Positions 25,916 to 41,789 of a stretch of DNA of 64,000 bases are shown in pieces; the stretch's first letter is position 1; each line of letters opens with the position of its first letter. The notes beneath the pieces are model-generated. The model saw only the letters and a list, made by a program, of their open reading frames with translations, ran no database searches and was not told where the DNA came from. Origin of the DNA: Amycolatopsis benzoatilytica AK 16/65 (lineage in GTDB: Bacteria; Actinomycetota; Actinomycetes; Mycobacteriales; Pseudonocardiaceae); contig NZ_KB912942.1 in assembly GCF_000383915.1 (NCBI RefSeq), positions 8,140,470-8,204,469 on the forward strand, given 5' to 3'. The position numbers and the translations under genes are program-made.

Positions 25916-27400
25916 TCAGGCGCGGGGATTGAATGGGTCGGCGATGGTGTTCCCGGTGTCGATCCAGGCGGTCTTGACCTCGGTGTACTCCTCGATGGCG
26001 TGGAAGCCGTTCTCCCGGCCGATCCCGCTTTCCTTGAATCCGCCGAACGGGGCGACATGGTTGGTTTTGCGGTAGTTGTTGATCCATACGCTGCCCGCGC
26101 GCAGGCGCCGGATCATGCGGTGGGCGCGAGCGACGTCGCGGGTCCAGACGCCGGCGGCGAGGCCGAACGGGGTGTCGTTGGCGATTCGGACGGCGTCGTC
26201 TTCGTCGGTGAACTTGATGACCGCCGCGACCGGCCCGAAAACCTCTTCGCGAGCGATCCGCATGTCGTTGGTGACCCCGGTGAAGACGGTGGGCTGGACG
26301 AACAAACCCTCGTCGAGCGCGGGGTCGGCGGGCCGCCCGCCACCAGTGGCCAACTGTGCGCCCTCGGCCTTCGCCATCTCGATGTAGTGCAGCACCTTGT
26401 CGTACTGGGCCTGACAGGCGACGGTGCCCATTTCGGTTTCGGGGTGGAGCGGGTCGCCGAGCTTGATCTGCGAGGTCTTCTCGGTGAGTGCCGCGACGAA
26501 CTCGTCGTGGATGTCTTCGTGCACGAGGACCCGTGACCCCGCCATGCAGGTCTGTCCGGTCGCGGCGAAGATGCCCGCGATGACGCCGTTGACGGCGTTG
26601 GGCAGGTCGGCGTCGGGAAAGACGATGTTGGGCGATTTTCCGCCCAGTTCCAGGGAAACTCGCGCGAGCCGCTGCGCTGCCGTGACCGCGATCTTCTTGC
26701 CGACAGCGGTGGAACCGGTAAAGGCGATCTTGTCGACGCCGTGGTGTTCGGCCAGCGCGGCGCCGACCGGCGCGGCCCCGGTGACGACGTTGACGACCCC
26801 ATCGGGGAAACCGGCCTCCTGGATGAGCCGGGCGAGGACCAATGTGGACACCGGGGTGATCTCGGAAGGTTTGATCACCACGGTGTTCCCGGCCGCGAGG
26901 GCGGGGCACAGCTTCCACAACAGCAACGCCAGCGGGCTGTTCCACGGGGTGATCGCGGCGACCACGCCGATCGGTTCCCGCACGGTGAACACCTGCATGC
27001 CCGGCACGCTGCTGGCGAGCGTTTCGCCGAGCGGGCTTTCGGCGACTCCGGCGAAGAAATAGCAGTGGTTGGCCAGTGCGATGGTCTGGCCGGCGACTTC
27101 ACGGATGAGCTTCCCGTTCTCCAGGACCTGGATGCGGGCGAGTTCGTCGGCGTTCTCCTTGATGAGGTCGCCGAACCGGCGCAGCAGAGTCGCGCGCTGC
27201 AGCGGCGTCGAACCGGACCAAGGCCCATCATCGAACGCCCGCCGGGCCGCGGTGACGGCGTCGTCTATGTCCTGGGGCGTGGCGCTCGGCACCTCAGCCC
27301 AAGTCTTCCCGTTGAAGGGGTTGACCGACGGGAAGGTGGCACCGTCTGCGGCGTCGCGCCACTTTCCGTCGATCAGCATCGTGTAGGTCTCGGTGCTCAT
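25916..27400 (-). CDS. NAD(P)-dependent aldehyde dehydrogenase of the tricarboxylate-type catabolic cluster
   Basis: 494 residues from the ATG at 27400. ALDH features are complete: AAITPWNSPLALLLWKLCPA (cofactor/substrate pocket), FTGSTAVGKKI (glycine motif, about 242), the general base Glu in [10 protein letters not shown] (about 265) and the nucleophile Cys in GQTCMAGSRVL (about 299). The end motif PFGGFKESGIGRENG is typical of the betaine/aminomuconate-type subgroup. It oxidises an aldehyde to a carboxylate. It is the last gene of the leftward operon (dehydrogenase, transporter, ALDH), 25 bp after the transporter, so the aldehyde is probably an intermediate of the same pathway. Confidence 0.92.
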   Translation of the reverse strand: MSTETYTMLIDGKWRDAADGATFPSVNPFNGKTWAEVPSATPQDIDDAVTAARRAFDDGPWSGSTPLQRATLLRRFGDLIKENADELARIQVLENGKLIREVAGQTIALANHCYFFAGVAESPLGETLASSVPGMQVFTVREPIGVVAAITPWNSPLALLLWKLCPALAAGNTVVIKPSEITPVSTLVLARLIQEAGFPDGVVNVVTGAAPVGAALAEHHGVDKIAFTGSTAVGKKIAVTAAQRLARVSLELGGKSPNIVFPDADLPNAVNGVIAGIFAATGQTCMAGSRVLVHEDIHDEFVAALTEKTSQIKLGDPLHPETEMGTVACQAQYDKVLHYIEMAKAEGAQLATGGGRPADPALDEGLFVQPTVFTGVTNDMRIAREEVFGPVAAVIKFTDEDDAVRIANDTPFGLAAGVWTRDVARAHRMIRRLRAGSVWINNYRKTNHVAPFGGFKESGIGRENGFHAIEEYTEVKTAWIDTGNTIADPFNPRA

Positions 27401-27425
27401 GCCGGTGGTTCTCCCAAACTTTCTT

Positions 27426-28745
27426 TCAGGCGGAGGCGGGCAGGGCTGGTTCGGGCGCGGTGGACGCCGCATGTTTCTTGTGGCGCACGCCGACGACGGC
27501 GACGAGCGAAATGGCGGCGGAGGCGACGGTCAACAGGGCGAGCGGCCACCAGCGGGTTCCGTTGCCGACTAAGGCTTCGGCGACGAACGGTGTCGGAGCG
27601 CTGAAGATCAGGGCACCGAGCGCGTTGCTCAACGCGGTGCCGCTGTAGCGGACCTTGGTGTCGAACTGGTCGGCGATGACGCTGGAAATCACGGCGTACA
27701 CAGTGGCGTGGGCGCCCAGCATCATGACGGTGACGACGAGGCCGGTGAGGAAAACCTGGTCGCGGCCCATGAGCCAGAAGAACGGGAAGACCGCCGCCGC
27801 GGTGAACAGGACACCGCCCAGCAGCACGGGCCGGGCGCCGACTCGGTCGCTGGCGGCGGCGACCACCGGCAGGACAAGCAGGTCGATGGCGGCCGCGACC
27901 ATCACGATGAGCAACGCGGTCTCGCGCGCCATGCCGAGCGAGGTCGTCGCGTAGGTCAGGAAGTACACCGAGATGAGGTAGAAAACGACATTGACCGAGG
28001 CTTGGACACCGGTGCCGACCGCGAGCCCCCGCCACGCTCGGGTGAAGACCTCGCCGATCGGTAACCGGACTGTCTGCCCGGCCGATTTGAGCTCGCTGAA
28101 CTGCTCGGGTTCGGCGACGCCGAGACGGATCGCCAGGCCGACGGCGACGAGCACGAAGCCGGTGAGGAACGGGATCCGCCACCCCCAGGCCAGCAGCTGA
28201 TCATTGGGCAACGCCGAGACCGCGGACATCACGGCGGTCGCGAGGACCAGGCCGAGCGGGCTGCCCATCTGCGGTGCGGACCCGAACAGCCGCCGCCGCG
28301 ACGGCGGCGCGTGCTCGACCGACATCAGCACCGCTCCACCCCATTCGCCGCCGACCGCCAGCCCCTGGGAGAGGCGCAGGGTGATGAGCAGGATGGGTGC
28401 TGCGATGCCGATCGAGTGGTAGGTCGGCAGCGCCCCGATCAGACCGGTCGAGACACCCATGATGCTCAGGGTCATGATCAGGGTGGACCGGCGGCCGAGC
28501 TTGTCGCCGAGGTGACCGAACACCGCGGCGCCGATAGGCCGGGCGACGAACGCGACAGCGAGTGTGGCGAACGACGCGAGCTGTCCGCTGTGCGTGTCGA
28601 ACGCCGGGAAGAACAGCTTGCCGAAGACCAGCGCGGCGGCGAGGCCGTAGACGAAGAAGTCGAACCATTCGATGGTGGTGCCGACGAGGCTGGCGATGGC
28701 GGCACGCCGGGACATAGCCCGGGTGGTCCGCACCGGTTGTGCCAT
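27426..28745 (-). CDS. MHS-family major facilitator transporter for an organic acid
   Basis: 439 residues, 12 membrane segments. The MHS (metabolite:H+ symporter) signs are all present: AAIASLVGTTIEWFDFFVYG at the N-terminus, the loop GHLGDKLGRRSTLI between segments 2 and 3, and RLSQGLAVGGEWGGAVLMSV in segment 4. Relatives import citrate, tricarballylate, alpha-ketoglutarate, shikimate or proline/betaine. I chose the ATG at 28745 because AAAGGAG lies eight bases upstream. An ATG at 28763, overlapping the upstream stop as TGATG, lacks such a site. It lies between a TcuA-like dehydrogenase and an ALDH, so a polycarboxylate substrate is likely. Confidence 0.9.
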   Translation of the reverse strand: MAQPVRTTRAMSRRAAIASLVGTTIEWFDFFVYGLAAALVFGKLFFPAFDTHSGQLASFATLAVAFVARPIGAAVFGHLGDKLGRRSTLIMTLSIMGVSTGLIGALPTYHSIGIAAPILLITLRLSQGLAVGGEWGGAVLMSVEHAPPSRRRLFGSAPQMGSPLGLVLATAVMSAVSALPNDQLLAWGWRIPFLTGFVLVAVGLAIRLGVAEPEQFSELKSAGQTVRLPIGEVFTRAWRGLAVGTGVQASVNVVFYLISVYFLTYATTSLGMARETALLIVMVAAAIDLLVLPVVAAASDRVGARPVLLGGVLFTAAAVFPFFWLMGRDQVFLTGLVVTVMMLGAHATVYAVISSVIADQFDTKVRYSGTALSNALGALIFSAPTPFVAEALVGNGTRWWPLALLTVASAAISLVAVVGVRHKKHAASTAPEPALPASA

Positions 28746-28762
28746 GACTGTCTCCTTTGACA

Positions 28763-30148
28763 TCAGGACGCTGCGCTGGGGACGGTGGAGCGTGCCGCGG
28801 CCGCTTCGCCGGCGACGCGGCCGAAGCAGAGGGCACGCAGGACGGAGGTGGCACCGGGGTACTTGTGGTGATAGATCCCGGCGACCTCGCCGACGGCGTA
28901 CAGGCCCGGGATCGGCGCACCGTCCCGGCCGACGACCCGTGCGTGTTCGTCGGTCTTGAGGCCGCCGAAGGTGAAGGTGATGGCGCAAGTTACCGGCCAC
29001 GCCACGTACGGAGGCTCGTCGATCGGGCGCGCCCAGTTCGACTTCGGCGGTTCGAGCCCGTTGGTCGACACCCCGTCGAGACGGGTCACGTCGAGGGGAC
29101 CTGGCTGGGCGGCGGCGTTGTACTTCTTGACCGTCGTCACGAGCGCGGCGGCGTCGAGGTCGAGACGCTCCGCCAGGGCTTCGAGCGTGTCGGCCGATTC
29201 GGGTTCGCGGTCGGTCAGGACGGCGCGCGCGATGTCGTGGCGCACCAGTTTCTGGTCCGCGATCAGGTACGCGAACTGGTTGGCGTCGCGCCAGATCCGG
29301 TACGCGACCGACTCGAAGGTGTTGTCCGGGGTGTCGGCGCCTTCGTCGAGGAACCGCTCGCCGCGGTGGTCGACGAGGATGCCGTACGGATAGACCATGA
29401 CCAGTGCTTCCGGTGACCGGGTGCGCGGGTCGACTGGCTCGCCGTGGAAGCGGTCGAACTGCCCGTCGGTCGCCGCCCCGGCACGCACGCCCATCTCGAT
29501 GCCCTCGCCCTGATTGGCGCGCCCGCCGGGGGCGATGGTCGAAAGCTCGTGCCCTCGCTCGCCGAGGTGGCGGTTGAGCAGTGTCGCACTGCCTTCGAAT
29601 CCGCCGCAGGCAAGAACGACTGTCGGCGCTTCCCACTGCGTCCCGTCGGCCACGACGACGCCGGTCACGGTGCCGGTCTCGTCCTGGACAAGGGCGTGTG
29701 CGGCGGTGTCGTACCGGATGGTGCCGCCGAGGGCCTCGACCCGGGCCGCGAGCGTCTCCACGATCGCCGCGCCACCGCCGACCGGCATCAGCCGCGGGCC
29801 CTTCGAGGTCAGGAAGTAGGTGAGGTCCGCCTTCGTGGCGATGCCGTTCTCGTTGAGCCACTGCATGGTGGGCTGGGCCAGCGCGGCCAGCCTCCCGACG
29901 ATGGCGGCGTCGGTCCGGCCGTCGCTCAGTTCGAGCATCCGGGCGGAAAAGTCGGCCGCCGGCGCGCCGTCCTGTTCGAGCCGGAAGAACGCGCCGGTCC
30001 ACGCCGTGTTGCCACCGCGCCGGGCCTTCGACGTCCGTTCGAGGACGACTACGCGACCCGTGGGGTGGAGCTCCAGGAACCGCACGGCGGTCGCGAGACC
30101 GCCGGCGCCGCATCCGACCACGACCAGATCTGCCTGTTGTCGAGTCAC
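28763..30148 (-). CDS. FAD-dependent dehydrogenase, tricarballylate dehydrogenase (TcuA)-like
   Basis: 461 residues from a GTG at 30148 preceded by GAGGGAG. It belongs to the fumarate reductase/succinate dehydrogenase flavoprotein family: FAD motif DLVVVGCGAGGLATAVRFLE, RRGGNTAWTGAFFR (about 43), LSDGRTDAAIVGRL (about 75), PVGGGAAIVETLAARVEALG (about 120) and the C-terminal AGIYHHKYPGATSVLRALCF. The RGGN and GRTD positions match TcuA, which oxidises tricarballylate to cis-aconitate; 3-ketosteroid dehydrogenases are more distant alternatives. It is the first gene left of the IclR operator region. Pairing with an MHS transporter also mirrors tcuA-tcuC. The exact substrate is inferred. Confidence 0.8.
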   Translation of the reverse strand: MTRQQADLVVVGCGAGGLATAVRFLELHPTGRVVVLERTSKARRGGNTAWTGAFFRLEQDGAPAADFSARMLELSDGRTDAAIVGRLAALAQPTMQWLNENGIATKADLTYFLTSKGPRLMPVGGGAAIVETLAARVEALGGTIRYDTAAHALVQDETGTVTGVVVADGTQWEAPTVVLACGGFEGSATLLNRHLGERGHELSTIAPGGRANQGEGIEMGVRAGAATDGQFDRFHGEPVDPRTRSPEALVMVYPYGILVDHRGERFLDEGADTPDNTFESVAYRIWRDANQFAYLIADQKLVRHDIARAVLTDREPESADTLEALAERLDLDAAALVTTVKKYNAAAQPGPLDVTRLDGVSTNGLEPPKSNWARPIDEPPYVAWPVTCAITFTFGGLKTDEHARVVGRDGAPIPGLYAVGEVAGIYHHKYPGATSVLRALCFGRVAGEAAAARSTVPSAAS

Positions 30149-30256
30149 GAAACTCCCTCTCTCTTCCCCTGCGCACCATTGAGCGGTTTCGGGGTTCCGC
30201 TGGCCAGTTTGAGCAGTGCGGGAGTCAGGAAAGCACGCGCCATCGGCTCCGTCAAC

Positions 30257-30293
30257 CCACAATGTGGTTTGCATAAACCGTCTGACGGTCTAT
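30257..30293. promoter_or_regulatory. IclR operator region: two palindromes in the divergent promoter
   Basis: ATAAACCGTC (30273-30282), T, GACGGTCTAT (30284-30293) is a 21-bp palindrome with one mismatched pair. Beside it CCACA (30257-30261), A, TGTGG (30263-30267) is a perfect 11-bp palindrome. Both lie in the 155-bp gap between the dehydrogenase operon and the iclR operon, the normal position for IclR-type control of divergent catabolic operons. The 21-bp site ends ten bases before the iclR ATG. Confidence 0.65.
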
Positions 30294-30303
30294 GGTGGGA
30301 TTC

Positions 30304-31083
30304 ATGGCTGAGACTGGTACCGCTTCCACGCGGGTCGACGGCGGCGTGCGCAGCATCGCGCGAGCCATCGAGGTGTTGGAACTCTTCGACGTGGCGCATC
30401 CGACCCGGCAGCTGCGCGACCTGGTGACGCTGACCGGGCTGCCGAAGACCACCGTGGTGCGACTGCTTTCGACGCTCGAATCGCTCGGGCTGATCGTCGA
30501 CAGGGGCGACTCGTCCTATGGGCCCGGCCCCGGCTTCCTCCGCTGGGTCAAGCTCGCGGAGTCGTTGTGGGAGGTCGGGCCCGAGGCGCGCAAGATCATG
30601 TCCCGGCTGGTGGACGACTGCGGAGAGACCGTCAACGTCTACATCCGGCAAGGGCTCGACCGGACCTCGGTCGCCCAGGTCGAGGGCACCGCGACGGTCC
30701 GCAGCGTGGTCGAGGTGGGCGTGCCCTATCCGCTGGCCACCGGGGCCGCGGCCAAGATCCTGCTCGGCGGCGCACCGGAAGACGTGCTGCGAGAACTGGC
30801 CGCCCGCCGTTCAGACCTGGCCTGGGAGTCGCTGCGCCGCGAGGTCGACAGCATCCGCGAGGCCGGCTACGCGATAACGCACGGCGAACGCGAACTGGGC
30901 GCGTCCGCGGTGGCGGCGCCGATCTTCGGCAAGGACGGCCGGGTCATTGCTGCGCTGTCCGCGAGCGGGCCGACGTCACGCTTCACCGCCGACCGCGTCG
31001 GCCGGTACGTCGACGCCGTCACAGCGGCGGCCGGCGAAATCAGCCAAGTCGGCCTTGGCCCGGTGGAGGTGTTTCTTCGATGA
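30304..31083 (+). CDS. IclR-family transcriptional regulator of the catabolic cluster
   Basis: 259 residues from the ATG at 30304 (a GTG at 30292 is possible but lies within the operator). The N-terminal winged helix is VRSIARAIEVLELFDVAHPT, LRDLVTLTGLPKTTVVRLLS (about 15-65). The IclR effector domain follows: VNVYIRQGLDRTSVAQVEGT, PYPLATGAAAKILLGG, ITHGERELGASAVAAPIFG. It controls the two divergent operons, probably in response to the imported acid or a CoA product. Its TGA overlaps the CoA-transferase ATG (ATGA at 31080-31083), so the regulator is translated with the pathway enzymes. Confidence 0.93.
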   Translation: MAETGTASTRVDGGVRSIARAIEVLELFDVAHPTRQLRDLVTLTGLPKTTVVRLLSTLESLGLIVDRGDSSYGPGPGFLRWVKLAESLWEVGPEARKIMSRLVDDCGETVNVYIRQGLDRTSVAQVEGTATVRSVVEVGVPYPLATGAAAKILLGGAPEDVLRELAARRSDLAWESLRREVDSIREAGYAITHGERELGASAVAAPIFGKDGRVIAALSASGPTSRFTADRVGRYVDAVTAAAGEISQVGLGPVEVFLR

Positions 31084-32285
31084 CCGCGGATCTGCTCGCG
31101 GGGGTGCGCGTACTCGACCTGACCAACGTGCTGGCCGGGCCGTTCGCGGGCTATCAACTGGCCTTGATGGGTGCTGAGGTGATCAAGGTGGAACCCCCCG
31201 GGACCGGCGACCTGGCCCGTCAGCTCGGCTCCGACCCGGAGCTGTCTCGTGAGGGTCTCGGGGTCTCGTTCCTCGCCCAGAACTCCGGAAAGCGGTCGAT
31301 CACCGTCAACCTCAAATCGGACGGCGGCAAGGAAGTCTTCGCGAGACTTGTGAAGAGTGCCGACGTTCTGCTGGAGAACTTCCGCCCCGGCGTGCTGGAG
31401 CGGCTGGGATTCGGCTGGGATCGCTTGCGGGAGATCAACCCGCGGCTGGTCTACTGTGCTGTTTCCGGTTTCGGCTCGACTGGGCCGATGCGCGGCAGGC
31501 CCGCATACGACCAGGTGATCCAGGGACTGTCCGGCATAATGAGCGTGACCGGGACCGCGGAGGTGGCGCCGCTGCGCGTCGGTTTCCCGGTGTGCGACAG
31601 CTTCGGCGGGCTTGCCGCCGCGTTCGCGATCTCTTCGGCGTTGCTTCGCCAGCGGCGCACCGGCGAAGGCGCCTTCCTCGACACCTCGATGCTCGACGCC
31701 GCGCTGACGGCGATGGGCTGGGTGGTGTCGGATCATCTGATCGGCGGGCGCGAACCGGCCCCGATGGCCAACGAGAACATCACGTCCGCACCGTCTGGAA
31801 CCTTCGAAACCGCGGGCGGCGAGCTGAACATCGCGGCGAACAAACAGGAGCAGTACGAGATTCTCTGCCAGGTACTCGGTCGCGAGGAGCTGATCAACGA
31901 TCCGCGGTTCGCCACCCGGGAGGACCGCAAGCGCAACCGGCAGACACTGCGAGCCGAGCTGGAGACCTCGCTCAAGGCGAAGACCGCGGCGGAATGGGAC
32001 GAGATCCTGCTCGGCACCGGAGTGCCCGCCGCCCCGGTGATCTCGGTCCCCGAGGCACTGGTCTCCGCGCAGGTCGCGCACCGCGAGCTCGTCACCTCGG
32101 TGCCCTCGCCTGCGGCAAGCGGCGGTGAAGTGCGGGTGCTCGGCGCGCCCACCCAGGTCGACGGCGCCCGGGTCTCCACGGACCTGCGGCCACCGAAGCT
32201 CGGCGAACATACCGAGGCGATCCTGCGCGAACTGGGCTGCGGGAAGGCCGAAATCGCGCGGTTGCGTGAGGAGAAGGCGGTATGA
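31080..32285 (+). CDS. Class III (CaiB/BaiF) CoA-transferase
   Basis: 401 residues. The opening LLAGVRVLDLTNVLAGPFAG contains the family start, EVIKVEPPGTGDLARQ the usual next block, and LLENFRPGVLERLGFGWDRL with AVSGFGSTGPMRGRPAYDQV the core. The catalytic Asp of the family is the D in the AYD turn (about 141-143) or the nearby conserved site. Such enzymes move CoA from a donor such as succinyl-CoA to a carboxylic acid. It overlaps iclR by 4 bp and the next gene by 4 bp. With a citryl-CoA-lyase-like protein next, the acceptor is probably citrate or a citrate analogue; this is inference. Confidence 0.9.
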   Translation: MTADLLAGVRVLDLTNVLAGPFAGYQLALMGAEVIKVEPPGTGDLARQLGSDPELSREGLGVSFLAQNSGKRSITVNLKSDGGKEVFARLVKSADVLLENFRPGVLERLGFGWDRLREINPRLVYCAVSGFGSTGPMRGRPAYDQVIQGLSGIMSVTGTAEVAPLRVGFPVCDSFGGLAAAFAISSALLRQRRTGEGAFLDTSMLDAALTAMGWVVSDHLIGGREPAPMANENITSAPSGTFETAGGELNIAANKQEQYEILCQVLGREELINDPRFATREDRKRNRQTLRAELETSLKAKTAAEWDEILLGTGVPAAPVISVPEALVSAQVAHRELVTSVPSPAASGGEVRVLGAPTQVDGARVSTDLRPPKLGEHTEAILRELGCGKAEIARLREEKAV

Positions 32286-33124
32286 CTTCCGCACGGGACA
32301 AGGCGATCCATGCGACGTCGACCCGCGACGTGACCGACTGGTGGGCCACCGCGGTGTCCGACATCGAGCCCGGGGTCATCCGGCTGCGCGGCTATCCGGT
32401 GCAGGAGCTGATCGGGAACGCCGGCTTCGCGGAAACTATCTGGCTCCTGCTCCGCGGAGAGATGCCGCGCAAGGCCCAGGCCGCCTTGCTGGAGAAGGCA
32501 CTCGTCGCCGCCGTGGACCACGGCCCGCAGGCACCGTCGATCGCGGCCGCCCGGATGGCGGCGACCTGCGGGGTCGGGCTGCACGGCGCGATGTCCACTG
32601 GCGTCGGGCTGCTCGGAGATGTGCACGGGGGAGCCGGGCAGCAGTGCATGGCCGTGCTCGCCCGCATCCGCGAAGCGTCTGAAAAGGACGGTGTCGAGGC
32701 TGCGGTCGCCAAGGCGCTGAAAGACTTTCGGGAGCGACGGCGGCACGTGCCTGGCTTCGGGCATCGCTTCCACCCGCGCGATCCGCGCCGGGATCCCTTG
32801 CTTCAGGCCGTATCCGAGCAGGTCGTGGCCGGCGTCGTCGAGGGGCATTGCTTGAGGATCGCCGAAGAACTCGAACGGCAGCTGGCAGCGGGACGGACCG
32901 CGCCGGTCCCGATGAACATCGACGGTGCCACCGCCGTCGTCTACGCGGAACTCGGCTTTCCGCCGGAACTGGGCCGCGGGTTGTTCATCCTGTCGCGCTC
33001 GGTCGGGATCCTGGCCCACGCCTGGGAAGAGACCCAATCCGGGCGTCGGATCAAGGGGCCGATTCCCCCGCCCCTGCTGCCCGCCTACGTCGGCACCGCC
33101 GAACGCCAGGTGCCGCAGCCGTGA
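32282..33124 (+). CDS. Citryl-CoA lyase-like protein, short citrate synthase family
   Basis: 280 residues, far shorter than citrate synthase (about 370-430). Family features are GYPVQELIGNAGFAETIWLL at the start, GLLGDVHGGAGQQCMAVLAR with the His of the active site (about 120), and VPGFGHRFHPRDPRRDPLLQ with the second active-site His and Arg (about 157-170). Short proteins of this type are described as citryl-CoA lyase, splitting citryl-CoA to acetyl-CoA and oxaloacetate. It lies between a CoA-transferase and an aconitase-like gene, overlapping both by 4 bp. Cleavage of a substituted citryl-CoA, giving another acyl-CoA, is equally possible. Confidence 0.82.
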   Translation: MTSARDKAIHATSTRDVTDWWATAVSDIEPGVIRLRGYPVQELIGNAGFAETIWLLLRGEMPRKAQAALLEKALVAAVDHGPQAPSIAAARMAATCGVGLHGAMSTGVGLLGDVHGGAGQQCMAVLARIREASEKDGVEAAVAKALKDFRERRRHVPGFGHRFHPRDPRRDPLLQAVSEQVVAGVVEGHCLRIAEELERQLAAGRTAPVPMNIDGATAVVYAELGFPPELGRGLFILSRSVGILAHAWEETQSGRRIKGPIPPPLLPAYVGTAERQVPQP

Positions 33125-35694
33125 CGCTCGACTCCTTCCGCGCGACGCGCTCGCTGCCCGGCGGTAGCCGCTTCTTCAGCCTTCCCGCCGCCGAAGCCGC
33201 GGGAGCGGGCCCGCTGAGCCGTCTGCCGCACGCCAGCCGCACCCTGGTGGAAAACCTGCTGCGCCACGAGAACGGCCGGACAGTTACCGCCGATCACATA
33301 CGCGCGCTGGCCGAACGGGACACCACCACCTCGATCCCCTTCCACCCAGAACGTGTTCTGCTGCAGGACGCCTCTGGCATCCCAGTGCTGGCCGACCTGG
33401 TCGCTTTGGCCGAACGCGCAGCCGAGCTCGGACTCGACCCGGCCGCCGTCGCGCCCCGGCGGAGAATGGACCTGGTCGTCGACCACGCGCTGGAACTCGA
33501 CGCAGCCGGATCGGCACTGGCGGCCGGGCTGAACCTCGACCGCGAATACGACCGCCACGCCGATCGGTACCGGTTCCTGCGCTGGGCGCAGACCCGCTTC
33601 CCGGGCCTGCGTGTCGTGCCACCCGGCATCGGGATCTGCCATCAGCTCAACCTCGAGGTCTTGGCCGACGTGGTCACCGGCGGGCCGGTCGCCCGGTTCG
33701 ACTCCGTAGTCGGCACCGACAGCCACACCACCATGATCAACGCGTTGTCCGTGACCGGCTGGGGAGTCGGCGGCATCGAAGCGACCGCCGCCGCTCTCGG
33801 CGAGCCGATCCTGCTGCGGGTACCCGAAGTGGTCGGCGTCCGGCTGACCGGTGCCATTCGGTCGGGAGTGCTGGCGACCGACGTCGCACTGACCCTTGCC
33901 GCGGTGCTGCGGGCACACGGAGTCGTGCAGCGGATCGTGGAATTCCACGGGCCGGGCCTTGCCGCGTTGCCGGTTCCGGACCGCGCCACGATCGCGAACA
34001 TGGCACCCGAGTACGGCGCGACCATGGCCTATTTCCCCGTGGACGCCCGGACACTCGACTACCTGGGTCGCACCGGCCGCCCGGCGGGCGAGATCCGCGC
34101 CTACCTCGCGGCGCAAGGGATACTGTCCGGAATCGAGCCCGACTACGATGATCTGATCGAGCTGGACCTGACCACAGTGGACCGGACCCTGTCCGGTCCC
34201 TCGCGGCCGCACGAGACCCTTCATCCAGGCGACCTGCGCCGGCCGACGACGGCACGCCGTCCTGGAGAACTGTCCGAGGGCGACGTGGTGATCGCCGCGA
34301 TCACGAGTTGCACCAACACCTCCAACCCGCGAGCAATGGCCGCCGCCGGTCTGCTGGCCCGCAACGCGGTAGCTCGCGGACTCACCGTCGCGCCGTGGAC
34401 CAAGACCTCACTGACTCCAGGCTCGCGAGCGACCGCGGAGTTGTTGCGCACCAGCGGGCTGCAGTCCGCGTTGGACAAGCTGGGTTTCCAGGTCGCCGGG
34501 TATGGCTGCGGGACCTGCATGGGCAACTCCGGCCCGCTCCGGGACGATCTGGTCCGGCAGATCCGTGCGCGCGGCCTCTCCGTTGCGGCCGTGCTGTCGG
34601 GAAACCGGAACTTCCCCGGCCGCATCCACACCGACGTGACCCACTCCTACCTGGCTTCACCACCGCTTGTCGTCGCGTTCGCCCTCGCCGGGCGCACCAC
34701 GATCGACCTCGACTGCGACCCGCTCGGCACCGGCCGGGACGGCAAGCCCGTACTACTGGAAGACATCTGGCCCTCCGAAACGGAAATCGACGCGACCGTC
34801 ACGGCTGCCGAGCACCGGTCGCCGGGCCGCGGTGCGTCCCTGCCGATGACGACGGATCGCTGGCAGCAACTTCCATTCCCCGCAGGCGCAAGTTACGCAT
34901 GGGACGAGCAGGAAACCGGGCTGATCCGGCGTCCCCCGTTCGCCGACGCCGCGGCATGCGAACCCCTTCACTCGGGAAACATCACCGGAGCCCGGCCGCT
35001 GCTGGTCCTCGGCGACGACGTCACCACCGACCACATCTCCCCGGTCGGGCGCATCCAGCCCGGCTCGGCAGCCGGCCAATGGCTCACCGAACGAGGCGTC
35101 GCACCGGAAGAACTCGGCAGCTACAGCGCCCGGCGGCTTAACCACGAAGCGATGCTGCGGGGCGGCTTCGCTAACCCTCGGCTGCGCAACAAACTCGCGG
35201 AGGGCAGGGAGGGCGGCTGGACGCGCCTGCTACCGGACGGCGACATCATGCCGGTTCACGCCGCAGCGGCCGCATACGCGCGGCGCGGCACGCCGGTGGT
35301 CATCGTCGCCGGGCGCTCCTACGGCGTCGGCTCCGCCCGTGACTGGGCCGCGAAAGTCACCCGCCTGCTCGGCGTGCAAGCCGTACTCGCTCAAAGCTTC
35401 GAACGCATCCACCGCACCAACCTCGTCGCACTGGGCGTACTGCCCGTCGAGTGCCCCGCGCTGGGCGGATTCGACGCCGACGGAACCGAGGAGTTCGACA
35501 TCCTTGGCCTGGACGTCGGGCCCGCTGTCCAGGCACCGCTGACCGTCATCGCACGCCGAGGTGAACGGGTCGTGTTCGAACAGGCCGCGCTCGCCCGCAT
35601 CGACACCGAGGTCGAGCAGACCTGGATGCGCGCGGGCGGCCTGCTGCCCCGGCTCCTGGCCGCCCCGGCTCCAGTGGCCAACCAATCCCGATAG
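33121..35694 (+). CDS. Aconitase/IRP1 (AcnA)-family hydratase
   Basis: 857 residues from a GTG at 33121 overlapping the lyase stop (GTGA). The 4Fe-4S cluster Cys ligands are visible: one in AAITSCTNTSNPRAM and two in GYGCGTCMGNSGPL. Other AcnA blocks are DSVVGTDSHTTMINALSVTG, WGVGGIEATAAALGEP, LSGNRNFPGRIH, VLGDDVTTDHISPVGRI and the swivel-domain RSYGVGSARDWAAKVTRLLG. Actinobacterial housekeeping AcnA is usually around 900-940 residues, so this is a shorter paralogue. It isomerises or hydrates a tricarboxylate (cis-aconitate, citrate, isocitrate or a homologue). Its place in the operon points to a dedicated catabolic role rather than the TCA cycle. Confidence 0.9.
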   Translation: MTLDSFRATRSLPGGSRFFSLPAAEAAGAGPLSRLPHASRTLVENLLRHENGRTVTADHIRALAERDTTTSIPFHPERVLLQDASGIPVLADLVALAERAAELGLDPAAVAPRRRMDLVVDHALELDAAGSALAAGLNLDREYDRHADRYRFLRWAQTRFPGLRVVPPGIGICHQLNLEVLADVVTGGPVARFDSVVGTDSHTTMINALSVTGWGVGGIEATAAALGEPILLRVPEVVGVRLTGAIRSGVLATDVALTLAAVLRAHGVVQRIVEFHGPGLAALPVPDRATIANMAPEYGATMAYFPVDARTLDYLGRTGRPAGEIRAYLAAQGILSGIEPDYDDLIELDLTTVDRTLSGPSRPHETLHPGDLRRPTTARRPGELSEGDVVIAAITSCTNTSNPRAMAAAGLLARNAVARGLTVAPWTKTSLTPGSRATAELLRTSGLQSALDKLGFQVAGYGCGTCMGNSGPLRDDLVRQIRARGLSVAAVLSGNRNFPGRIHTDVTHSYLASPPLVVAFALAGRTTIDLDCDPLGTGRDGKPVLLEDIWPSETEIDATVTAAEHRSPGRGASLPMTTDRWQQLPFPAGASYAWDEQETGLIRRPPFADAAACEPLHSGNITGARPLLVLGDDVTTDHISPVGRIQPGSAAGQWLTERGVAPEELGSYSARRLNHEAMLRGGFANPRLRNKLAEGREGGWTRLLPDGDIMPVHAAAAAYARRGTPVVIVAGRSYGVGSARDWAAKVTRLLGVQAVLAQSFERIHRTNLVALGVLPVECPALGGFDADGTEEFDILGLDVGPAVQAPLTVIARRGERVVFEQAALARIDTEVEQTWMRAGGLLPRLLAAPAPVANQSR

Positions 35695-35713
35695 CTACGA
35701 AAGGACCCCGGTC

Positions 35714-35998
35714 ATGCAGTTCCTGGTTCTCAGCCGCAGGTACACCGAGCGGTACGAGGACGCCGAGTTCGACGCCGTCATCCCCGACGAAACCCGACGT
35801 GTGCGTCAGCTCTATGCCGCCGGAGTGGTGCGCCAGATCTGGCTGCGCGACGACATCCCTGGAGCCTGCTTCGTCATCGAAGCTCCAGACGAACAGGCCG
35901 CGCGATCCACGGTCGACGCGTTGCCGATGGCCCAGTCCGGCCTGTCCGAGTTCACCGTCATCCCACTGCTCCCATACCGGGGATTCGGACCCCGCTGA
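35714..35998 (+). CDS. Muconolactone isomerase-like (MIase/YCII fold) protein
   Basis: 94 residues from an ATG at 35714, with GAAAGGA about ten bases upstream. MQFLVLSRRYTERYED, RQLYAAGVVRQIWLRDDIPG and GLSEFTVIPLLPYRGF follow the plan of muconolactone delta-isomerase and related dimeric alpha/beta barrels. It follows the aconitase-like gene by 19 bp and is the last gene before the hairpin at 36011. No other ortho-cleavage genes are present, so muconolactone is not its likely substrate. It may isomerise a double bond in an aconitate-like intermediate; this is speculative. Confidence 0.7.
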   Translation: MQFLVLSRRYTERYEDAEFDAVIPDETRRVRQLYAAGVVRQIWLRDDIPGACFVIEAPDEQAARSTVDALPMAQSGLSEFTVIPLLPYRGFGPR

Positions 35999-36010
35999 AC
36001 ACCGACGAGA

Positions 36011-36042
36011 ACATCGCTCGCGCCACCCGGCGCGAGCGATGT
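36011..36042. terminator. Strong hairpin terminator of the catabolic operon
   Basis: ACATCGCTCGCGCC (36011-36024) and GGCGCGAGCGATGT (36029-36042) pair perfectly over 14 bp with the loop ACCC. It begins 12 bases after the stop of the muconolactone-isomerase-like gene. There is no T run, as is usual in high-GC actinobacteria. The following 259 bp (36043-36301) contain no gene I can support. Confidence 0.8.
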
Positions 36043-40265: not shown

Positions 40266-41789
40266 ATGGCCGTATACGCCGCACCGAACACCGACGGCTC
40301 CGTCGTCGACTACGAGACTCGCTACGACCACTACATCGGCGGCGAATACGTCGCGCCGGCGAGCGGGCAGTACTTCGAGAACCCGACGCCGGTGACCGGC
40401 AAGACCTTCACCGAGATCGCCCGTGGCACCTCGGCCGATGTGGACCGTGCGCTCGACGCCGCCGAGGGGGCGGCGCCGGCCTGGGGCCGCACGTCGCCGG
40501 AGGAACGCGCGAACATCCTGCTGAAGATCGCCGACCGGATGGAGCAGAACCTCGAGAAGATCGCGGTCGCCGAAGCCTGGGAGAACGGCAAGCCGGTCCG
40601 CGAGACGCTGGCCGCCGACATCCCGCTGGCCATCGACCACTTCCGCTACTTCGCCGGCGCCCTGCGCGCCCAGGAGGGCGGCATTTCGCAGATCGACGAG
40701 AACACCGTCGCCTACCACTTCCACGAGCCGCTCGGCGTCGTCGCCCAGATCATCCCGTGGAACTTCCCGCTGCTGATGGCGGTGTGGAAGCTGGCTCCGG
40801 CGCTGGCCGCGGGCAACGCGATCGTGCTCAAGCCGGCCGAGCAGACGCCGGCGTCGATCCACCTGCTGCTGTCGATCATCGGCGACCTGATCCCGCCGGG
40901 CGTGCTGAACGTCGTCAACGGATTCGGCGTGGAAGCGGGCAAACCGCTCGCCTCGAGCAACCGGGTGCGCAAGGTCGCGTTCACCGGCGAGACCACCACC
41001 GGCCGGCTGATCCTGCAGTACGCCAGCGAAAACATCATCCCGGTGACGGTGGAACTGGGCGGCAAGAGCCCGAACATCTTCTTCAACGACGTCGCCGCGC
41101 AGAACGACGCGTTCTACGACAAGGCGCAGGAGGGCTTCGCGCTCTTCGCGCTTAATCAGGGCGAGGTGTGCACCTGCCCGTCGCGCGCGCTGGTCCAGTC
41201 CGGCATCTACGAGAAGTTCCTCGGCGACGCGGTCGAGCGCGTGAAGAAGATCAAGCAGGGCAACCCGCTCGACACCGAGACGATGATCGGCGCGCAGGCG
41301 TCGAACGACCAGCTCGAAAAGATCCTTTCCTACATCGACATCGGCAAGCAGGAAGGCGCGAAGGTGCTCACCGGCGGCGGGCAAGCCGACCTGGGCGGCG
41401 ACCTCTCCGGCGGCTACTACGTGCAGCCGACGGTGTTCGAGGGCGACAACAAGATGCGCGTCTTCCAGGAGGAGATCTTCGGTCCGGTGGTGTCGGTCGC
41501 GAAGTTCGACGACTACGCCGACGCGCTCAAGATCGCCAACGACACGCTGTACGGACTCGGCGCCGGAGTCTGGTCCCGCGACGGCAACACCGCCTACCGG
41601 GCGGGCCGCGACATCCAGGCCGGCCGGGTGTGGGTGAACAACTACCACGCCTACCCGGCGCACGCGGCCTTCGGCGGCTACAAGGCGTCCGGCATCGGCC
41701 GCGAGACGCACAAGATGATGCTGGACCACTACCAGCAGACGAAGAACATGCTGGTGTCCTACTCGGACCAGGCGCTGGGCTTCTTCTGA
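40266..41789 (+). CDS. exaC: ExaC/AcoD-type NAD-dependent aldehyde dehydrogenase
   Basis: 507 residues from the ATG at 40266. ALDH hallmarks: [32 protein letters not shown], the base Glu in [13 protein letters not shown] (about 262) and the nucleophile in [13 protein letters not shown] (about 300), where the extra Cys after the catalytic Cys is typical of the ExaC/AcoD group. These enzymes oxidise acetaldehyde and other short aldehydes made from alcohols or acetoin. The start of the DUF779 gene overlaps its stop as TGATG. The GAF regulator is divergent. The symbol is by family likeness; aldB or acoD are used for the same group. Confidence 0.9.

Follow-up and report, generated by a model that had tools for sequence, protein, structure and literature searches.

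A conserved IclR-linked gene cluster of Amycolatopsis benzoatilytica predicted to degrade a branched tricarboxylate by CoA transfer and citryl-CoA-type cleavage

Introduction

Salmonella grows on tricarballylate with only the TcuABC proteins and its housekeeping aconitase, and no lyase is needed for this growth. In Hydrogenobacter, citryl-coenzyme A (citryl-CoA) synthetase and citryl-CoA lyase together take part in the reductive tricarboxylic acid (TCA) cycle. Here, we describe a cluster of eight genes from the soil actinomycete Amycolatopsis benzoatilytica AK 16/65, which lies in a 64,000-nucleotide stretch of contig NZ_KB912942.1 (positions 8,140,470 to 8,204,469); this whole stretch is referred to as the window. 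The cluster is real and coherent, and its genes predict an apparently undescribed variant of tricarboxylate catabolism assembled from known enzyme families. In our preferred reading, which we hold with a probability of roughly 60%, the cluster would be under the control of IclR and would serve the catabolism of a branched tricarboxylate, which either arises as its semialdehyde or is imported together with it. At the core of this reading are a family III CoA-transferase (CaiB) and a member of the citryl-CoA-lyase family (CCL), which are predicted to activate and cleave a citrate-like acid.

The three genes, tcuABC, are named in PMC10468695. The window cluster is like this system in having a TcuA-family flavin adenine dinucleotide (FAD) dehydrogenase, a metabolite/H+ symporter (MHS)-type transporter, and an expected unsaturated tricarboxylate product. 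It differs in that TcuB is not among the eight genes, in that the TcuA and TcuC cut-offs are missed, and in the addition of an aldehyde dehydrogenase (ALDH), a dedicated clade of aconitase (ACN), a CoA-transferase, and a lyase. A short citrate-synthase-type lyase, predicted to act on a citryl-type thioester, is shared with the Hydrogenobacter system; in the window, however, the eight genes contain no ATP-dependent synthetase, a family III CoA-transferase is encoded beside the lyase, and the setting would be catabolic. Citrate lyase (CitDEF) likewise cleaves a citrate-type acid via a thioester, with a CoA-type transfer followed by a lyase reaction, whereas its CitE-type lyase has another fold and its thioester is formed on an acyl carrier, a subunit that is not found among the eight genes. 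Itaconate degradation (Ict/Ich/RipC) and the family III succinyl-CoA:citramalate/mesaconate transferases also combine CoA transfer to a polycarboxylate with retro-Claisen cleavage to acetyl-CoA, but the lyase family and the substrate are different, and hydration is proposed to precede CoA transfer in the window rather than to follow it. No report that links family III CoA-transferases with citryl-CoA lyases in a catabolic role was present among the open PMC matches listed (titles and starts of abstracts), which is no proof of novelty; the enzyme types are known, and their combination appears to be undescribed.

Layout of the cluster and proposed pathway

Two divergent units with eight genes were read in the window from its open reading frames (ORFs). 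The features are as follows, in window coordinates.

25916-27400, minus strand: ALDH, NAD(P)-type aldehyde dehydrogenase; proposed step from semialdehyde to carboxylate
27426-28745, minus strand: MHS-family MFS transporter; proposed uptake
28763-30148, minus strand: TcuA-like FAD dehydrogenase, GTG start; proposed desaturation of a saturated tricarboxylate
30175-30209, no strand: second operator-like stretch of AACC/GGTT type, close to the start of the FAD gene (alignment by eye)
30252-30293, no strand: IclR-type operator-like footprint with paired AACC ... GGTT half-sites (alignment by eye)
30304-31083, plus strand: IclR-family regulator (Pfam IclR_C, 104 bits; HTH_IclR, 42 bits)
31080-32285, plus strand: CaiB, family III CoA-transferase; proposed CoA transfer to a hydroxy-tricarboxylate
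32282-33124, plus strand: CCL, citryl-CoA-lyase family protein; proposed retro-Claisen cleavage
33121-35694, plus strand: ACN, aconitase homologue of the GSARDW clade, GTG start; proposed hydratase
35714-35998, plus strand: small protein like muconolactone isomerase (MIase) and YCII; probably in the same transcript, outside the core set

The ORF coordinates confirmed the eight genes, the two divergent units, and the three 4-bp overlaps (IclR/CaiB, CaiB/CCL, and CCL/ACN) that a first-pass annotation of this DNA had described, while the end that it had assigned to the feature, 36042, lies beyond the last stop codon at 35998.

In the preferred reading, the MHS transporter would carry out uptake, the ALDH would turn a semialdehyde into a saturated tricarboxylate, and the TcuA-like flavoenzyme would desaturate this acid. 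The GSARDW-clade ACN could then hydrate the double bond to give a 3-hydroxy-3-carboxy acid, either citrate or a close homologue. CaiB would transfer CoA to the hydroxy acid from a donor, probably succinyl-CoA, and CCL would cleave the thioester to acetyl-CoA and a 2-oxo acid (oxaloacetate from citrate, 2-oxoglutarate from homocitrate). Each of these reactions is predicted from comparative genomics, as are the order in which they run, the donor of CoA, and the substrate, and the acid may be either citrate or one of its homologues, for example homocitrate. The energetic point of using a CoA-transferase would be that activation is paid for by succinyl-CoA, which the TCA cycle already supplies. 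If this reading is true, many proteins automatically annotated as citryl-CoA lyase would be partners of a CoA-transferase in catabolism rather than in carbon fixation, genome-based calls of the reductive TCA cycle would have to be corrected, a recognizable aconitase subclade would mark a separate degradation route, and a short set of enzymes would be open to testing.

CaiB and CCL form a widespread pair with conserved catalytic residues

Loci carrying CCL were collected as the best 80 of 171 genome places, ranked by CCL similarity and not by context, together with 12 of the 29 CCL-carrying plasmid records, giving 92 loci (individual loci are given as L numbers). The co-conservation of the two genes was observed directly: in 82 of the 92 loci, CCL has a CaiB gene on its own strand at a distance of no more than 4 kb, compared with 10 CaiB places in 914.5 kb elsewhere in these loci. 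The CaiB of five of the 82 (L068, L072, L101, L106, and L110, Azospirillum and Agrobacterium among them) is only 32 to 35% identical to that of the window, so a different branch of family III evidently fills the CaiB place there. CCL itself belongs to a large family, with at least 7,999 matches at an E value of ≤1e-30 among 8,000 candidates scored, a number that may include other citrate-synthase-type proteins; among the matches listed, the named relatives closest to it come from Amycolatopsis and Saccharopolyspora. The pair of CaiB and CCL occurs widely and is not confined to the type of cluster found in the window.

The CCL protein passed the curated citryl-CoA lyase model NF004864 (415.2 bits; cut-off, 261), and its best PDB match was the citryl-CoA lyase 6hxp. 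His80, His115, His161, Arg169, Asp214, and Arg239 were identical in 93/93 loci; by comparison with citrate synthase, we take His115, His161, and Asp214 to be catalytic and Arg169 and Arg239 to be carboxylate anchors. The arginine of 6hxp taken as a third carboxylate anchor aligns with Pro260 of CCL, in a stretch of alignment that is gapped and possibly misplaced, and the nearby Arg256 and Lys258 are the same in 93/93 loci. This is a hint that CCL may hold the keto acid differently from 6hxp. CaiB matched Pfam CoA_transf_3 (408 bits), and its PDB relatives include YfdE and succinate--hydroxymethylglutarate CoA-transferase; its nearest curated models, the glutarate, oxalate, formyl-, and mesaconate CoA-transferases, all remained below cut-off. 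Asp144, the proposed catalytic residue, was found in all 87 of the best per-locus matches that cover this position. The proximity of the two genes in most loci and the catalytic residues conserved in both proteins support the earlier proposal that CoA transfer would be followed by citryl-CoA-type cleavage.

The gene set recurs in other actinomycetes and in Proteobacteria

A TcuA-like FAD gene was found within 9 kb in 18 of the 92 CCL loci; among these 18, the ALDH gene was present in 18, the ACN gene in 12, and the MHS gene in 10. Thirteen are actinomycete loci (L001-L011, L039, and L112) with the gene order of the window, although L008 and L009 lack MHS and ACN and L039 lacks MHS. The other five belong to Alphaproteobacteria and have the order ALDH-CCL-CaiB-FAD, with ACN further on in Agrobacterium only (ALDH-CCL-CaiB-FAD-...-ACN). 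Searches started from ACN led to two plasmids of Cupriavidus necator, pBB1 (IclR / ALDH-FAD-...-ACN-CaiB-CCL) and pBB2 (ALDH-FAD-ABC transporter-ACN-CaiB). The first-pass annotation had stated that its proposal would be refuted if these genes were not kept together elsewhere. They are kept together: the set occurs in a changed order in Agrobacterium and Cupriavidus, and Azospirillum has it without ACN. Genes for a branched-chain-amino-acid-type ABC transporter adjoin the cluster in L039, L101, L110, and L115. On pBB2 of C. necator N-1, which carries a second copy of the cluster, CCL is a short remnant (L115:22520-22806) by an integrase gene, and a longer CCL match of 260 residues is found on pBB1. 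Near three Nocardia clusters there is a thiolase-type gene (L008:10901-12661, L006:13511-15262, and L004:1984-3168), next to which a small ORF, hotdog-like by eye, is present in L006 and L008.

The common operator region predicted by the first-pass annotation is supported by an intergenic alignment made by eye. This alignment, of the window with 12 other loci, shows a conserved AACC/GGTT-type footprint directly before iclR, which is only weakly visible in L039. Another footprint of this type lies close to the FAD gene and is gapped in L009. An IclR gene lies within 9 kb in 18/18 FAD-bearing CCL loci. The divergent arrangement and the conserved operator-like footprints together support the prediction that one regulator serves both units. 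A sigma-70 promoter scan found 0 promoters, with 0.4 expected. It could be supposed that a tricarballylate/shikimate uptake unit happens to stand beside a separate citrate-lyase unit with which it shares no pathway, as would suit two divergent transcripts and enzyme families that are all common. We consider this highly improbable: FAD and ALDH genes occur together by CCL in 18/18 FAD-bearing loci, all of them with CaiB within 4 kb; the combination of FAD, ALDH, CaiB, and CCL recurs in altered orders in two phyla; and the operator-like region is common to both units.

A further run of genes, on Rhodococcus sp. DN22 plasmid p1 (L123:3975-9317), was found via the FAD protein and contains CaiB (31% identical), ALDH (59%), and FAD (45%), with a CitE/RipC-like lyase instead of CCL (RipC score, 168 bits; cut-off, 375). 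Because a lyase of another family occupies the equivalent place in DN22, there is good evidence that C-C cleavage of a CoA ester would belong to the route. The DN22 lyase would also suit an itaconate/mesaconate-type dicarboxylate route, in which the FAD protein would form mesaconate or itaconate, CaiB its CoA ester, and CCL, acting as a citramalyl-CoA lyase, acetyl-CoA and pyruvate; in line with this, CaiB scores 259 bits to succinyl-CoA:mesaconate CoA-transferase, below the cut-off of 700. However, Arg169 and Arg239 of CCL align with residues that we take to be the carboxylate anchors of citrate synthase, ACN is an aconitase and not a CoA-ester hydratase, and the RipC match is itself below cut-off, which makes a dicarboxylate route very unlikely.

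ALDH, transporter, and FAD dehydrogenase

The ALDH matched Pfam Aldedh with 616 bits, and 45 NCBIfam models matched it, with the cut-off reached by none of the 25 listed. The ALDH proteins of the five Alphaproteobacterial loci are 51 to 55% identical to that of the window, and paralogues in its own genome reach up to 52%. ALDH identity alone is therefore no proof of orthology, and it was rejected as proof of a common substrate. The presence of ALDH in every one of the 18 FAD-bearing loci supports the earlier suggestion of an aldehyde-derived substrate.

The families named by the first-pass annotation held for ALDH, CaiB, CCL, and ACN and needed qualification for three other proteins: the FAD protein scores just under the TcuA cut-off, the transporter is nearer to ShiA, and the small protein narrowly misses its model (see below). 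For the transporter, the NCBIfam metabolite/H+ symporter model gave 401 bits, under its cut-off of 443, and the shikimate transporter model ShiA gave 320 bits, more than TcuC (216; cut-off, 445), with both below cut-off. Against TIGR02485, the FAD protein scored 168.3 bits, below the cut-off of 372.55. Flavocytochrome c fumarate reductases, urocanate reductase, and ketosteroid dehydrogenases are among its PDB relatives.

Some relatives of the FAD protein were found outside these clusters. A second TcuA-like homologue in the window's own genome (G000:C1:3027624-3028868) is 39% identical, with one TGA within the matched stretch. On a plasmid of Variovorax boronicumulans (L121:6369-15794), an ALDH gene, a gene for a TcuA-type protein, and genes for tripartite-transporter binding proteins occur together; the TcuA-type protein, which adjoins the ALDH, passed NF006130 with 377.7 bits. 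Further on in L121 is a gene annotated as 2,5-dihydroxypyridine 5,6-dioxygenase, and four genes intervene between it and the ALDH-TcuA pair. An isonicotinate (pyridine-carboxylate) source of the semialdehyde was a chemical idea only and was rejected; the papers among the matches listed dealt with other subjects.

The aconitase homologue belongs to a clade with an altered active site

ACN passed the AcnA equivalog TIGR01341 (954.5 bits; cut-off, 945); its Fe-S cysteines 397, 463, and 466 are present, and most of the aligned active-site motifs are kept, as judged by eye. It fails the GSSRDW active-site motif test, reading GSARDW with Ala at residue 739, whereas the other AcnA of the same genome (L086) reads GSSRDW. 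We take the changed Ser to correspond to Ser643 of pig aconitase, which contacts the substrate, and the retained Ser to be the catalytic Ser642. In the 120 homologues listed, including that of the window, 73 have Ala and 47 have Ser. In a tree of 90 subsampled sequences, the 74 Ala proteins, that of Agrobacterium included, form one clade (support, 0.999) with no Ser member. All nine window-type genome loci with a readable motif have GSARDW (the motif is cut in L003, and L008 and L009 are without ACN). On plasmids, where eight motifs were read, the ACN gene lies in an ALDH/FAD/CaiB cluster in 4/4 cases with GSARDW (L106, L112, L115, and L116) and in 0/4 cases with GSSRDW (L117-L120); this comparison was not blind, as L106 and L112 were found via CCL and the L115 and L116 records were known to have FAD hits. 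The aconitase of L031, a TctCBA/MHS/CaiB/CCL locus, reads GSSRDW. ACN is probably a dedicated hydratase for a somewhat different substrate.

These findings bear on the scheme put forward by the first-pass annotation, in which tricarballylate would be converted to cis-aconitate, citrate, and citryl-CoA and then to acetyl-CoA and oxaloacetate, with the ALDH supplying tricarballylate semialdehyde. The TcuA-like nature of the FAD dehydrogenase, an AcnA-like hydratase with intact Fe-S cysteines, and a curated model that names CCL citryl-CoA lyase all suit this scheme, and the six FAD-bearing loci without ACN (L008 and L009 among them) could use a housekeeping aconitase, as would fit cis-aconitate. 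On the other side, Salmonella manages with TcuABC and its housekeeping aconitase; the window genome has another AcnA, next to which an altered ACN and a citrate-cleaving pair would be redundant; and the presumed third carboxylate-anchor Arg of 6hxp aligns with Pro260 of CCL, in the gapped stretch mentioned above. We regard the tricarballylate scheme as a tentative alternative, well short of an even chance. Since a dedicated altered hydratase and a lyase are not needed for tricarballylate in Salmonella, the gene set suggests that the substrate is a compound related to tricarballylate and not tricarballylate as such. The overall scheme of the first-pass annotation is thus partly supported; its chain from tricarballylate via cis-aconitate to citrate is not supported or stays open, given the changed active-site residue of the ACN clade and the lyase-free growth of Salmonella.

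CaiB-CCL occurs in other metabolic contexts

Genes for TctC and TctA, components of tripartite tricarboxylate transporters, were found in 21 of the 80 genome loci (by clustering, with Pfam run on one member each), and TctCBA adjoins CaiB-CCL in Ruegeria (L104). The pair occurs with a DASS symporter in Methylobacterium (L103) and with MHS transporters in others, and a thiamine pyrophosphate (TPP) enzyme is encoded near CCL in 16/80 genome loci. In Azoarcus pAZKH (L102:5837-13351), CaiB-CCL is found with a shikimate dehydrogenase and a type I 3-dehydroquinate dehydratase, and a triosephosphate isomerase (TIM)-barrel protein of this locus matches the N-terminal half of 5hmq, presumably a 3-dehydroshikimate dehydratase. 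A 3-dehydroquinate dehydratase is present in L069, a shikimate dehydrogenase in L079, and an ABC transporter, a TPP enzyme, an ALDH, and a shikimate-dehydrogenase-like gene in the Catellatospora loci L049 and L066. These five loci (L102, L069, L079, L049, and L066) resemble a quinate/shikimate (hydroaromatic) route ending in a citrate-type acid, with not all of the genes in each. An acylating-type aldehyde dehydrogenase gene lies directly 5' of CCL in L069 and L070, with CaiB about 8 kb away; the member of that family in L074 scored 494 against SauS (cut-off, 600). Collectively, these contexts fit an enzyme that would cleave a citrate-like acid in its CoA-bound form, the acid itself being supplied in several ways.

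They also bear on a scheme one carbon longer, in which 3-carboxyadipate semialdehyde would pass through 3-carboxyadipate, homoaconitate, homocitrate, and homocitryl-CoA to acetyl-CoA and 2-oxoglutarate. The Ser-to-Ala change across the whole ACN clade is in keeping with it, as are the apparent replacement of the third carboxylate-binding Arg in CCL, with Arg256 and Lys258 conserved instead, and the quinate/shikimate-type genes and TPP enzyme next to CaiB-CCL in Azoarcus and others, given that a C7 ring could, by chemical inference, open to homocitrate. However, no enzyme of the cluster scores better to homoaconitase than to aconitase, the tricarboxylate transporters near CaiB-CCL suit citrate equally well, the gapped alignment around the third Arg may be misplaced, and the 5hmq-like TIM barrel makes a protocatechuate route to citrate equally possible in Azoarcus. 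The longer scheme is a possible but doubtful one. Broader still, and in our view unlikely, is the proposal that CCL and CaiB are a general end-piece of several undescribed routes from C7 compounds to homocitrate, yielding acetyl-CoA and 2-oxoglutarate from homocitryl-CoA. The route of the window would start with desaturation and hydration of a 3-carboxyadipate-type acid. Proteobacteria and some actinomycetes would have a sister route, in which a TPP enzyme would open a ring derived from quinate/shikimate and the aldehyde would be oxidized. If this were true, homocitrate would be a catabolic hub, beyond its role as a precursor of lysine or a cofactor.

Evidence weighing against the preferred reading

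Several observations weigh against the preferred reading of a branched-tricarboxylate pathway. The cluster is rare: CCL was found in 9/80 genomes of the same genus, only two of them (the window's own included) at ≥83% identity; FAD at an E value of ≤1e-180 in 2/397 genomes of the order, own genome included; and ACN at an E value of ≤1e-270 in 1/394 genomes of the class sampled at random, this being the window's own. The FAD protein falls below the TcuA cut-off (NF006130, 351.1 bits; cut-off, 369), family searches, which covered the eight genes only, assigned none of them to tcuB, and the cluster genes do not identify an electron acceptor for the FAD protein. In 10/92 loci, CCL has no CaiB gene at a distance of up to 4 kb; six of these loci have truncated flanks and four have full flanks (L074, L075, L107, and L108). 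The sequence of CaiB gives no proof of citrate-type specificity, as family III CoA-transferases act on many acids. The cluster hydratase is not always needed, because ACN is missing from 6/18 FAD-bearing loci (L008, L009, L068, L072, L101, and L110).

The small protein and neighboring genes

The first-pass annotation had described the protein encoded at the end of the plus-strand unit as muconolactone-isomerase-like and had taken it, together with the ALDH, as a sign of a substituted or aldehyde-derived tricarboxylate. It scored 26.6 bits against Pfam MIase PF02426, just below the cut-off of 26.7, and 23.7 against YCII (cut-off, 24), and it matched neither an NCBIfam model nor, at an E value of ≤1, a PDB entry. 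Its gene is present in only 2/80 genome loci (L001 and L007), and none of the 12 plasmid loci showed it at an E value of ≤1e-8. BLASTP gave no match between the protein and the YciI proteins encoded close to the loci of Cupriavidus and Methylobacterium. On these grounds, it was rejected as a pathway step.

Ten neighboring ORFs of the window, among them a GDSL lipase, TetR, DinB, an epimerase-type protein, ALDH, and LysR genes, were tested as upstream steps, and no link to the cluster was found. Another ALDH gene of the window (40323-41756, plus strand), with a LysR gene further on, encodes a protein 42% identical to the cluster ALDH.

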